Source: Knoellia koreensis
Lineage (GTDB): Bacteria > Actinomycetota > Actinomycetes > Actinomycetales > Dermatophilaceae
Assembly: GCF_013041615.1 (NCBI RefSeq)
Contig: NZ_JABEPQ010000001.1
Span: 426,976 to 490,975, forward strand
DNA length: 64,000 nt
Reading direction: 5' to 3'
Shown here: positions 1,331 through 62,799 of the stretch, piece by piece
Layout of the letters: each line of letters opens with the position of its first letter
How positions within the stretch are numbered: the first letter of the stretch is position 1
The notes under the pieces: generated by a model
What the model saw: only the letters and a program-made list of their open reading frames with translations
Told to the model about the DNA's origin: nothing
Databases searched by the model: none
Made by a program: the position numbers and the translations under genes

Positions 1331-2319
1331 CACTCGACCCCGCCTGCCGGCGCCGTGGCGGCGACGGTCAGCGGCAGGATCCCGAGCGTCACCGTTCCCG
1401 TGCCGGCCAGAAGGGAGACCCTCGCCGTCAGGTAGGTCGTGGAGAAGGTGCCACCGGCGGCGACGATGTCGGCGTTGCTGGCGAGGTGCAACGTCACCGA
1501 CCCCACCAGCGGCACCGAGACGGTGAGGTCGGCACCTGCCACGAGCGTGACCGTGCCGATGCCCGGGCCGGTGACCTGGACCGAGGAGCCGGTGATGCTC
1601 GCGCTGCCGGCGGCGCCACTGGTCGCCGTCGTGCTCAGCTCGGGCTGGAGGGCGGACACGCGGACCGCCCCGCCGAGGAGGGCCAGGCCGGCCACGTTTC
1701 CCCGGGCGGTGCTGGTCACGCCACGGGTGTCGTGGGTGGGCGACTGCGCCGTGAGCGAGGTGGTCGTCGTCACCGATGACACACCGGTCTGGAGCACGTT
1801 GACGCCCAAGGCTCCCACCGAGGCGCCGGTCGTGGTGGTCACGGCCCGCGAGATCGGCTGCCCGGCAGGGACGCAGGCGTTCGCGCCGGCCCACGTTGCC
1901 TCATCGGTGTAGGTGAGAACCCCCGTGGACAGCACCCCGGGCAGCGTCACCGAGGCCAGTCCGCCGGAGTCGGCCGAGTCAGGAGGGGCGGTCTCGGTGT
2001 TCGCGGCCCTGACCCCGACCGGCCCGAGGAGCACCCCGAGGTTGGCGGACGTCGCCGTCGACGGGGCCGTGGCGTCGGTGCTGTCGACCGCGCTGGTGGA
2101 GTGCACGAGATCGGTGGCCAGCAGGTTCGCTCCGACGATCGAGCTCGCCGCGGTCAGGACGTCGCCGGTCGCGGTGGCGGAGTATGCCGCGGGCAGGGGG
2201 GCGGCGGACGCGCTCGGCGCCGCGACGGCCAGACCACTCCCGGCGAGTCCCGCCGTGGCAGCCATCGCCAACCACCGACGTACCCATCGGCGACCCAGGA
2301 CCTTGTGAAGTTGCACCAT
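1..2319 (-). CDS. Exported Ig-like repeat surface protein (3' end outside window)
   Basis: The reading frame is open from the ATG at 2319 to the left edge (773 codons visible), so the C-terminus and any anchor are not seen. Residues 1-40 form a signal peptide: a Lys/Arg-rich start, a hydrophobic core, and an Ala-rich cleavage region near SASA. Residues about 40-330 are Ser/Thr/Ala/Gly/Val-rich and probably beta-structured, with no recognised domain; the beginning resembles choice-of-anchor-type actinobacterial proteins. From about residue 330, tandem Ig-like modules of 90-91 residues follow, each with the pattern TxTDTAPAVxI, PADGS, DGSWTYTP and ATDAAGN, typical of bacterial Ig/Big domains in adhesins. 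GGGAG lies 9 nt before the ATG. A role in adhesion or as a wall stalk is inferred. The second to fourth modules are nearly identical at DNA level. Confidence 0.85.
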   Translation of the reverse strand, partial: MVQLHKVLGRRWVRRWLAMAATAGLAGSGLAVAAPSASAAPLPAAYSATATGDVLTAASSIVGANLLATDLVHSTSAVDSTDATAPSTATSANLGVLLGPVGVRAANTETAPPDSADSGGLASVTLPGVLSTGVLTYTDEATWAGANACVPAGQPISRAVTTTTGASVGALGVNVLQTGVSSVTTTTSLTAQSPTHDTRGVTSTARGNVAGLALLGGAVRVSALQPELSTTATSGAAGSASITGSSVQVTGPGIGTVTLVAGADLTVSVPLVGSVTLHLASNADIVAAGGTFSTTYLTARVSLLAGTGTVTLGILPLTVAATAPAGGVECDTTAPAINIVAPADGSTVPDATPTFSGTSGVLSGSITLAIDGGSPVTVPTAADGSWSYTPTTPLSETTHTAVATATDTAGNSATDSTRFTVDVPPAVAITEPADGSATNDATPAITGTSNVLSGSVRLAIDGGAPATVPTAADGSWSYTPATALGEGPHVAVATATDPQGNTATDSSTFTVDTTAPAVTITAPADGSVTNDPTPAITGTSDVLNGSISLTIDAGTPVSVPTGADGSWTYTPTTDLADGSHTAVARATDAAGNTASDSSTFTIDTTAPAVAITAPADGSSTNDATPALTGTSDVLNGSISLTIDAGTPVSVPTGADGSWTYTPTTDLADGSHTAVARATDAAGNTASDSSTFTIDTTAPAVAITAPADGSSTNDATPPITGTSDVLNGSISLAIDAGTPVSVPTGADGSWTYTPTTDLADGSHTAVARATDAAG

Positions 2320-2355
2320 GAGATGTGACTCCCTGGCTCATGCACCCCAACATCT

Positions 2356-2375
2356 CTTATACGTCAAATGACGTA
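2356..2375 (-). promoter_or_regulatory. Perfect palindrome upstream of the Ig-repeat gene
   Basis: TACGTCA-AA-TGACGTA at 2360-2375 is a perfect 7-bp inverted repeat. It sits about 40 bp upstream of the ATG at 2319 and abuts TATAAG (2361-2356, minus strand), a possible -10. An operator for a dimeric regulator is inferred. The half-site TTTGACGT recurs upstream of the histidine kinase (14499) and of the second response regulator (15900). Confidence 0.45.
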
Positions 2376-2414
2376 GTCCTGTCCCGCCTTCCTGAAAAAA
2401 TTCTGTGAGACCGG

Positions 2415-61426: not shown

Positions 61427-61893
61427 TGGACCTCTACCAGGAGCTGATCCTCGAGCACTCCAAGCGCCCACACCACGCCGGGCTGCGCGATGGCTTCGAC
61501 GCCGAGGTGCACCACGTCAACCCGACCTGCGGCGACGAGGTGACCCTCCGGGTCCACGTCGACGGCGAAGGCGACGACGCGGTGATCCGCGACGTGTCCT
61601 ACGACGCGCTCGGCTGCTCGATCTCGATGGCGTCGGCCAGCGTCCTCGCCGACGAGGTCATCGGGCACACGGTGGCCGAGGCCCTGACGACGCACGAGGC
61701 GATGCGCGCCATGCTGACATCCAAGGGCGCGGACCCCGGCGACGAGGACGTCATCGGCGACGGTGTGGCCTTCGCGGGCGTCTCGAAGTACCCCGCCCGC
61801 GTGAAGTGTGCTCTGCTGGGATGGATGGCGTTCACCGACGCGTTGCACCAGGCAGGCGTGACCAGCGTTTCGAAGGAAGAGGCAGCACGATGA
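61426..61893 (+). CDS. sufU: Sulfur-transfer protein SufU
   Basis: 155 residues of the IscU-like SufU class. Cys in NPTCGDEV, ALGCSISMASAS and RVKCALLGW, with Asp/His, form the zinc site that accepts persulfide from SufS. ATG overlaps the sufS stop (TGATG). Confidence 0.95.
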   Translation: MDLYQELILEHSKRPHHAGLRDGFDAEVHHVNPTCGDEVTLRVHVDGEGDDAVIRDVSYDALGCSISMASASVLADEVIGHTVAEALTTHEAMRAMLTSKGADPGDEDVIGDGVAFAGVSKYPARVKCALLGWMAFTDALHQAGVTSVSKEEAAR

Positions 61894-62216
61894 CCGAGAC
61901 CACCACCCAGCCCAACGTGGCCGATGTCGAAGAGGCCATGCGCGACGTCGTCGACCCCGAGCTCGGCATCAACGTCGTCGACCTGGGCCTCGTCTACGGC
62001 ATCACGGTCGACCCGCAGAACCACGCGGTGCTCGACATGACGCTCACGTCAGCGGCCTGCCCGCTGACCGACGTCATCGAGGACCAGACGTCGCAGGCGC
62101 TCGAGGGCCTGGTCGCGAGCCACCGCATCAACTGGGTCTGGATGCCGCCGTGGGGGCCGGACAAGATCACCGAGGACGGCCGCGAGCAGCTGCGCGCCCT
62201 CGGCTTCAACATCTGA
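61890..62216 (+). CDS. sufT: Fe-S assembly factor SufT (DUF59/MIP18)
   Basis: 108 residues of the MIP18/DUF59 fold: VVDPELGINVVDLGLVYGI and LTSAACPLTDVIEDQ with the conserved reactive Cys. It matures target Fe-S proteins. ATGA overlap with sufU; last gene of the suf operon. Confidence 0.94.
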   Translation: MTETTTQPNVADVEEAMRDVVDPELGINVVDLGLVYGITVDPQNHAVLDMTLTSAACPLTDVIEDQTSQALEGLVASHRINWVWMPPWGPDKITEDGREQLRALGFNI

Positions 62217-62232
62217 GCCGCCCACCAACCAC

Positions 62233-62799
62233 GTGAGCCGCGTCGTCGAGGTGGCGCCCGAGCGCCTCGACGGGTGGCTGGAGCGGTTCGAGGCCAACAA
62301 TGCCGAGGGCGCGGGATCGTCTGCGCCGCAACGGATCTCGTCGGTCGAGCGCTTCGACTTCGCGCCACTGGCGGTCGTGCTCGTGCGTCGCGGCGGGTAT
62401 GCCGTGGGGCTGGCCGACGACGCCGGTCACCTGAGCGCGTCGAAGGTCGGCACGCGTCATGTGCAGTCACGCACCGCCGCCGGTGGCTGGTCGCAGCAGC
62501 GGTTCGCCCGGCGCCGCGGCAACCAGGCCGACGAGCTGGTGCGGGCCGTGGGCGAGCACGCGCACCGGCTGCTGCCACGCGGCATACCTCGCGGTCTCGT
62601 TGTGGGTGGCGACAAGGCGCTGGTGCGCGCGGTCCTCGACGACCCTCGACTGGCCTTCCTCGGCGAGCTGCCGCGGCGCGAGCTCTACGACCTGCCCGAC
62701 CCGAAGCGCGCCGTCCTCGACGACGCCGTCCGCCGCGGTCGCGCCGTCCGCGTCACCGTCGAGGACCATCCGGATGGCGGTGGCCCGGCGGCGGGGTGA
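62233..62799 (+). CDS. acVLRF1-type peptidyl-tRNA hydrolase
   Basis: 188 residues. The motif GGWSQQRFARRRGNQ near 90 with a catalytic Gln and the LRF1-like fold match actinobacterial Vms1-like release factor 1, which frees nascent chains from stalled 50S subunits. VVLVRRGGYAVG and ASKVGTRHVQ are further family marks. GTG start with no clear SD, 16 bp after sufT. Confidence 0.9.
   Translation: MSRVVEVAPERLDGWLERFEANNAEGAGSSAPQRISSVERFDFAPLAVVLVRRGGYAVGLADDAGHLSASKVGTRHVQSRTAAGGWSQQRFARRRGNQADELVRAVGEHAHRLLPRGIPRGLVVGGDKALVRAVLDDPRLAFLGELPRRELYDLPDPKRAVLDDAVRRGRAVRVTVEDHPDGGGPAAG

Follow-up and report, generated by a model that had tools for sequence, protein, structure and literature searches.

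A highly abundant non-palindromic octamer of Knoellia koreensis and its family, probably a DNA uptake sequence with dialects

Inverted pairs are a known feature of the DNA uptake sequence (DUS) of Neisseria, whose receptor is carried by type IVa pili, and the uptake signal sequence (USS) of the Pasteurellaceae has AT-rich flanks. In the passages cited here, the DUS of the Neisseriaceae is described as forming dialects between species and genera, with five genomes of the family lacking an obvious word and with a receptor argued to change together with its word (PMC3630211), and as being balanced in orientation (PMC1939737). The passages on the USS give an average spacing of ~1,000 bp, both orientations and close inverted pairs as terminators (PMC7811141), and PMC1939737 cites Karlin et al. 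for an even spacing. Uptake words are not known beyond two Gram-negative families; PMC12616744 names only two families, and the pertinent part of a review from 2025, where it touches on these words, refers to Neisseria alone (PMC12236230). In this work, a 64-kb stretch of the Knoellia koreensis genome (positions 426,976-490,975 of contig 1; genome of 4,282,418 bases), hereafter the window, has been analyzed together with the whole genome and its relatives. The word GTATGCCG, repeated along this window, is probably a DNA uptake sequence of this lineage, with dialects, a reading to which a probability of about 0.75 is given from sequence comparisons.

An exact recount has revealed 53 copies of GTATGCCG in the window, 30 forward and 23 reverse, spanning positions 2182 to 62587, in agreement with the count made by hand in the initial annotation, a reading of the sequence alone. 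The strong over-representation claimed there was confirmed by dinucleotide-preserving shuffles of the window (n=100; mean 1.06 copies, largest 5) and by a third-order Markov model (2.16 copies expected), against which GTATGCCG was the top over-represented 8-mer. Genes were called with our own simple model, with no curated annotation, and all coding and intergenic labels are based on it; 15 of the 53 copies are intergenic, the same number that the initial annotation gave for copies between genes or on a start codon. The whole genome contains 1983 forward and 2003 reverse copies (3986 in total, ~0.93/kb), and the word is 35 times commoner than its control, the same word read backwards (54 + 60 = 114). 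A sample of 804 kb, composed of the window, 17 stretches of 20 kb and another 400 kb (420 contiguous kb with stretch L048), includes 762 copies, very far from the 4.9 (order 3) to 7.6 (order 5) expected by Markov models with the word masked, an enrichment of ~100-155 times.

In the 804 kb, G is found before 55% of the copies (background 32%), C or T after 81% (46%) and then G in 71% (33%), and the extended form ~GGTATGCCGYG that had been proposed is therefore maintained. Outside these flanks the remaining preferences are weak and follow a codon rhythm, so GTATGCCG is not a dispersed repeat element; AT-rich flanks are absent. The 24 one-mismatch variants total 546 copies, compared to 386 (order 3) or 584 (order 5) expected, and therefore the word is sharp, with no clear cloud of decayed copies. 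The two orientations are almost equally common in the 20-kb stretches spread along the initial 1.1 Mb of the largest contig, and 205 of 429 copies are forward in another 420 kb of contiguous sequence. These counts exclude a strong skew between origin and terminus in the sampled stretches, considered without a mapped origin. Forward and reverse copies are also balanced when the 108 word-rich genomes of the family (at least 0.1 copies/kb) are summed (101,176 and 101,512).

Selection acts on the DNA, both within and between genes, as the initial annotation had maintained. When synonymous codons were reshuffled within each gene of a first set of 433 kb in 50 rounds, a mean of 21.6 copies and a maximum of 33 were obtained in the called genes, compared to the 276 observed, and 126 of the 252 TAT codons of these genes sit inside the word. 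The main reading frames are xxG-TAT-GCC-G and the antisense Ala-Tyr, and other frames are also present. Of the copies in the 804 kb, 565 fall within coding sequences, 188 between genes and 9 at edges, with a density of 0.80/kb in genes and 1.7-2.1/kb in spacers (2.1-2.6 times denser). Neither synonymous codon choice nor dinucleotide composition explains the word.

The copies of the word are spaced strand by strand. The observed/expected ratio of same-strand pairs in the 804 kb was 0.00 at 0-50 bp, 0.39 at 50-100 bp, 0.26 at 100-250 bp, 0.50 at 250-500 bp, 0.62 at 500-1000 bp and 0.86 at 1000-1500 bp, and then ~1, while opposite-strand pairs beyond 50 bp were near expectation (0.88-1.33). Because same-strand copies avoid each other and opposite-strand copies do not, neighbouring words alternate in strand (509 of 744, p 4e-24; 449 of 676, p 1e-17, once pairs at 100 bp or less are removed). 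The gene layout is not the cause of this spacing, since pairs within single genes and 1 kb follow the same trend (50 same-strand, 144 opposite). The avoidance was absent for four other 8-mers of the K. koreensis genome. At 61-1000 bp, this genome has 175 same-strand and 363 opposite pairs, and the repulsion is also clear in G164 (55 vs 93). The ten sets besides K. koreensis give 254 vs 350 when all are pooled (p 1e-4), and 8 of them go in the same direction; the nine sets other than G164 are not significant alone (63 vs 80 in G103), and the repulsion was not seen in two small ones, G053 (11 vs 7) and G083 (14 vs 14). Forward and reverse counts of the 108 word-rich genomes are closer than chance (sd of z 0.78, chi-square ~66 on 108, p 6e-4), which fits the same strand-wise regularity. 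From these data we infer that the action of the word depends on strand or direction, one copy per strand serving ~1-1.5 kb.

Close convergent copies are frequent and form hairpins. At 0-50 bp, the observed/expected ratio in the 804 kb was 3.1 for convergent and 0.9 for divergent pairs. There are 28 convergent pairs no more than 50 bp apart, 24 of them intergenic (17 between codirectional genes, 4 head-head and 3 tail-tail), and many stems, inspected by eye, extend past the word. Three intergenic hairpins were folded in the window, all on the forward strand and none equalled by any of 200 shuffles: 27545-27600 (-43.2 kcal/mol, z -6.2), whose stem is a convergent pair with its left arm at 27557-27564 (+) and its right arm at 27579-27586 (-); 21705-21745 (-35.7 kcal/mol, z -8.1), a convergent pair between convergent genes, with the left arm at 21714-21721 (+), between two gene ends, and the right arm at 21728-21735 (-); and 4855-4895 (-24.0 kcal/mol, z -5.3), from a divergent pair with arms at 4864-4871 (-, left) and 4879-4886 (+, right). 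No regular T run was seen by eye after the hairpin pairs in the 804 kb, and for this reason a role as terminators is only suggested for them.

Eight stretches longer than 4.5 kb lack the word in the 804 kb. One of them (L034, 9481-20000, at least 10.5 kb, GC 0.73) carries a serine recombinase, and another (L139, 10966-18631) has low GC and open frames that resemble, by reading, surface-glycan genes. Contigs C2 and C3 have 0 words in 22 kb and encode insertion sequence (IS) integrase domains, together with a ring-hydroxylating dioxygenase, a peptidase and a DUF2637 protein, and the 6.5-kb contig C4 has 6 words. The word is absent from the three stretches with mobile genes that were examined, which are few cases. 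A further word-free stretch, at 21727-27556 of the window, resembles by reading an ordinary transporter operon. Contig C2 (L049), word-free, bears an IS integrase fragment as well as the ring-hydroxylating dioxygenase, and it could be a catabolic island or a piece of a plasmid.

The distribution of GTATGCCG was determined in 186 genomes of the family (53 genera). The word is present at 0.1 copies/kb or more in 108 genomes (31 genera), at 0.04-0.1 in 13 and below 0.04 in 65. Outside the family, as read from the tables, none of 602 genomes was above ~0.08/kb (362 from 19 other families of the order and 243 from a phylum sample, 3 shared). In samples mostly of 21 kb, Knoellia, Pedococcus, Lapillicoccus and Nostocoides jenkinsii showed 8-20 copies and Terrabacter 4-7, with 0 in Phycicoccus endophyticus, Mobilicoccus and Streptomyces and 0-1 in Arthrobacter. 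Across the family, a comparison proposed in the initial annotation, the word is patchy, with other words in sister genera. Rich and poor species occur together in three genera: g33, g4 (G008) and g42 (G114). In g33, the density is 0.004/kb in G084, 0.72 in G085 and 0.22 in G086. G084 is a single-contig genome with 19 copies (1062 and 3681 in its congeners), ComEC and 7 TadE-like matches, which makes it well suited as a contrast in a search for the receptor.

Positional conservation was analyzed in compared 20-kb segments with 12 words, excluding gapped and unaligned sites. The exact word was kept at 37 of 70 sites in close word-rich relatives (G139, G140, G141, G144, G145, G147, G148, G149; control 8-mers 26-35%), at 8 of 29 in lower-density sisters (G138, G142, G143, G146; 24-32%), at 7 of 26 in word-bearing genomes of other genera (G137, G086, G009, G115; 17-22%) and at 0 of 29 in word-poor genomes (G084, G153, G008, G053; 20-22%). 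These fractions, from small numbers, indicate that the word holds its positions more often than by chance chiefly in close relatives that are word-rich, and that turnover is high. In G041 (g18; L080, L081), 14 copies share a longer form, ~CGTATGCCGCTGGGC, more fixed than in K. koreensis.

De novo word counts in 20 genomes (40 kb each) revealed that other words replace or accompany GTATGCCG in some of them. The word GGATGCCG, used by genera g9, g15 and g51, has 3619-4480 copies in G017, G018, G034, G035 and G178 and 2195 and 2099 in G036 and G037, here alongside ~1200 copies of GTATGCCG, with 241-1336 elsewhere in the family. CGAAGGGG has 1198-2588 copies in all 16 g27 genomes and 2589-3180 in all 3 of g36 (84-396 elsewhere). 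GTATGACG is found beside GTATGCCG in g14 and g48, with 1557-1966 copies in the five g14 genomes and G167; several further genera have fewer copies of it, up to 834. Both orientations of the three words are near equal, and in G093 five of the seven opposite pairs of CGAAGGGG within 60 bp are convergent. From its abundance, balance and close convergent pairs in G093, CGAAGGGG would do the same job as GTATGCCG. A high-level word is thus carried by 132 of the 186 genomes (108 with GTATGCCG, 5 dominated by GGATGCCG and 19 with CGAAGGGG). Nothing argues more strongly for a receptor that switched along with its word than this replacement between genera. A further dialect is possible in G083 (g32; L062, L063), with 35 copies of CGATGCGG in 40 kb (5.8 expected) and no strand-wise spacing in this small sample, and GGCGTAC has 47 copies in 40 kb of G090 (g35; L068, L069), with 14 expected.

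The competence genes were searched in the same family. ComEC (PF03772) was matched in 180 of the 186 genomes, and by reading comEA adjoins comEC in K. koreensis, which also has a Tad/Flp locus; its products, named by reading, are TadA-, TadB- and TadC-like proteins, three that resemble minor pilins and a small one that resembles Flp. This locus is likewise whole in G103, which is word-rich, and in the word-poor G008 and G153, and its gene calls are incomplete in word-rich G164 and word-poor G184. ComEC was rejected as a tracker of the word because of its near-general presence and because the 6 misses bear the word, and TadE-like pilins were rejected because they were found in all 28 genomes tested, word-rich and word-poor alike. 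The com genes indicated for checking in the initial annotation are therefore present, as is the Tad locus, but neither separates word-rich from word-poor genomes. The type IVa pilus marker PilM (PF11104) was detected in only 1 of 28 genomes tested, so this pilus was rejected as the general uptake machine, and type IVa pili seem absent. The sole PilM-positive genome is G086 (L031), which probably has a type IVa pilus. In another actinobacterium, Micrococcus luteus, the passage cited states that tad/Flp genes are required for transformation (PMC4322843).

The reading of GTATGCCG as an uptake sequence is favoured because its abundance, balance, hairpins, lack in the mobile DNA examined and dialects match the DUS and USS. 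At the sequence level this supports the uptake signal proposed in the initial annotation, none of whose contrary outcomes (an abundance near the Markov expectation, a strong orientation skew, an explanation by dinucleotides or codon choice) was found, and the dialects, hairpin pairs and absence from the mobile DNA examined, which it had not foreseen, fit the same proposal. On free DNA, the word would be bound by a receptor at the cell surface, which might be a minor pilin from a competence pilus of the Tad/Flp type or a protein that acts together with ComEA; word-bearing DNA of the own kind would then enter through ComEC and recombine, and the repeated uptake bias would spread and maintain the word throughout the core genome. 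Related genera would have switched receptor and word together (GGATGCCG, GTATGACG, CGAAGGGG) or lost the preference. As in the passages cited for the Neisseriaceae, this is a short non-palindromic word with thousands of copies, dialects and some genomes without it, but the word is unrelated, the phylum is other and the envelope monoderm, PilM is absent in 27 of 28 genomes tested, ComP was not found and uptake is putative. The Pasteurellaceae USS, according to its cited passages, shares the frequency of about one per kb, both orientations, close inverted pairs and even spacing; it differs in the word, and here AT-rich flanks are missing and one-mismatch copies are not clearly in excess. Spacing strand by strand is not mentioned in those passages on the USS.

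Several data weigh against this reading. None of the words reaches a high level in 54 of the 186 family genomes, by our own reading of the counts. The six ComEC-negative genomes all bear GTATGCCG (G016, G051, G122, G129 and G168 above 0.1/kb, G181 at 0.09), most of them being fragmented or incomplete assemblies, and the reversed control is also raised in some word-rich genomes, with a word/control ratio of at least 2.5 (median 11.6). ComEC and TadE-like genes also occur in word-poor genomes, so that a gene following the word did not emerge, and no ComP-like receptor was identified or candidate singled out by the PilM and TadE-like searches among the genomes tested. No clear excess of one-mismatch copies exists in the 804 kb, no report on transformation in this family was present among the literature matches listed, and a Chi-like site would agree with the strand-specific spacing too. 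A directional action is opposed by Haemophilus influenzae, in which, in the passage cited, word orientation has no effect on uptake (PMC1939737).

The Chi-like alternative, the main rival, is unlikely. In it, a helicase-nuclease entering from a DNA end would read the word on one strand and switch to RecA loading, so that the words of each strand serve enzymes from one side and each strand needs about one per kb. Chi sites of RecBCD/AddAB are over-represented and strand-specific in action, and a Chi word is shared by related genera. Repulsion to ~1-1.5 kb on the same strand with independence of the opposite one, found even within genes (50 vs 144), and the absence of the word from the mobile stretches examined agree with such a site. 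The likeness to Chi is over-representation; here there is no skew, the enrichment of ~100 times is much higher, the word changes between sister genera and nearly disappears in one species of g33 (0.004/kb, with 0.72 and 0.22 in its two congeners), and it is denser between genes and in hairpins, all of which argue against a Chi-like site. A bias of base, amino acid or codon composition, for which Tyr-Ala and Ala-Tyr as the commonest frames could speak, is already refuted by the synonymous shuffles (276 vs 21.6) and the dinucleotide shuffles of the window (1.06), the higher density outside genes and the lack of enrichment of the reversed word in K. koreensis.

HIP1 of cyanobacteria is a very abundant palindromic octamer across a clade, a likeness with GTATGCCG, which differs from HIP1 in being unlike its own complement and in its strand-specific spacing. 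A word that accumulates by biased repair, at a DNA methylase site or by HIP1-like conversion, and not by uptake, would be sharp, as this one is, and words specific for genera could follow methylases specific for genera. We consider it highly improbable: the word is non-palindromic, conversion should deplete particular one-mismatch variants whereas their sum is near the fifth-order Markov value (546 vs 584), and both same-strand spacing and hairpin pairs are left unexplained. A signal for chromosome organisation or segregation (KOPS-, matS-, parS- or Noc-like) is slightly more improbable still; the word occurs throughout the genome and at regular distances along each strand, as such a signal could, but it has no skew, its copy number is far above that of such sites, and many relatives have no word or another one.

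It is tentatively proposed, as a possibility rather doubtful at present, that GTATGCCG marks a third uptake-sequence system, of independent origin and without precedent in Gram-positive bacteria, which would use a Tad/Flp pilus and a directional word, each orientation being a separate signal that covers ~1-1.5 kb of its own strand, so that strands would be tagged independently. To our knowledge, no DNA uptake sequence has been described before in Gram-positive bacteria. Uptake-like words in actinobacteria were not found among the matches listed from the literature searched, which held no preprints and few subscription papers, and among the matches listed for the string of the word none was on this subject, judged by title. 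If the uptake reading is true, a monoderm group, the Intrasporangiaceae/Dermatophilaceae, evolved the trait anew, probably with another pilus; the dialect switches, gains and losses would be a natural series for finding the receptor by comparison, and natural competence would be predicted in many environmental actinobacteria (Knoellia, Terrabacter, Nostocoides, Janibacter, Pedococcus). With the strand-wise spacing, the directionality of uptake becomes a question that can be tested directly.

The remaining copies in the window, all exact matches, are the following. Forward, in coding sequences: 2182-2189, 2805-2812, 7325-7332, 7376-7383, 11168-11175, 13241-13248, 18205-18212, 35485-35492, 35899-35906, 38062-38069, 41485-41492, 44326-44333, 46072-46079, 46867-46874, 48268-48275, 50776-50783, 53746-53753, 56051-56058, 57910-57917, 58486-58493, 60985-60992 and 62397-62404. 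Reverse, in coding sequences: 8256-8263, 14095-14102, 16927-16934, 29392-29399, 36495-36502, 40155-40162, 40239-40246, 45210-45217, 46521-46528, 48917-48924, 49945-49952, 51579-51586, 54603-54610, 56186-56193, 61344-61351 and 62580-62587. Intergenic copies are located at 4961-4968, 9394-9401, 18546-18553, 33695-33702 and 50366-50373 (forward) and at 3226-3233, 9475-9482, 11613-11620 and 33857-33864 (reverse); the six hairpin arms given above are likewise exact and intergenic.

Another 8-mer, CTGTCCGA, has 16 copies in the window (1.5 expected) and 13 in G184 (1.9 expected), and it is outside the ten top words of the larger K. koreensis sample. Open frames resembling uvrB, uvrA and uvrC were recognized by eye, from reading alone, at 9492-11600, 18661-21699 and 27635-29617 of the window, respectively.

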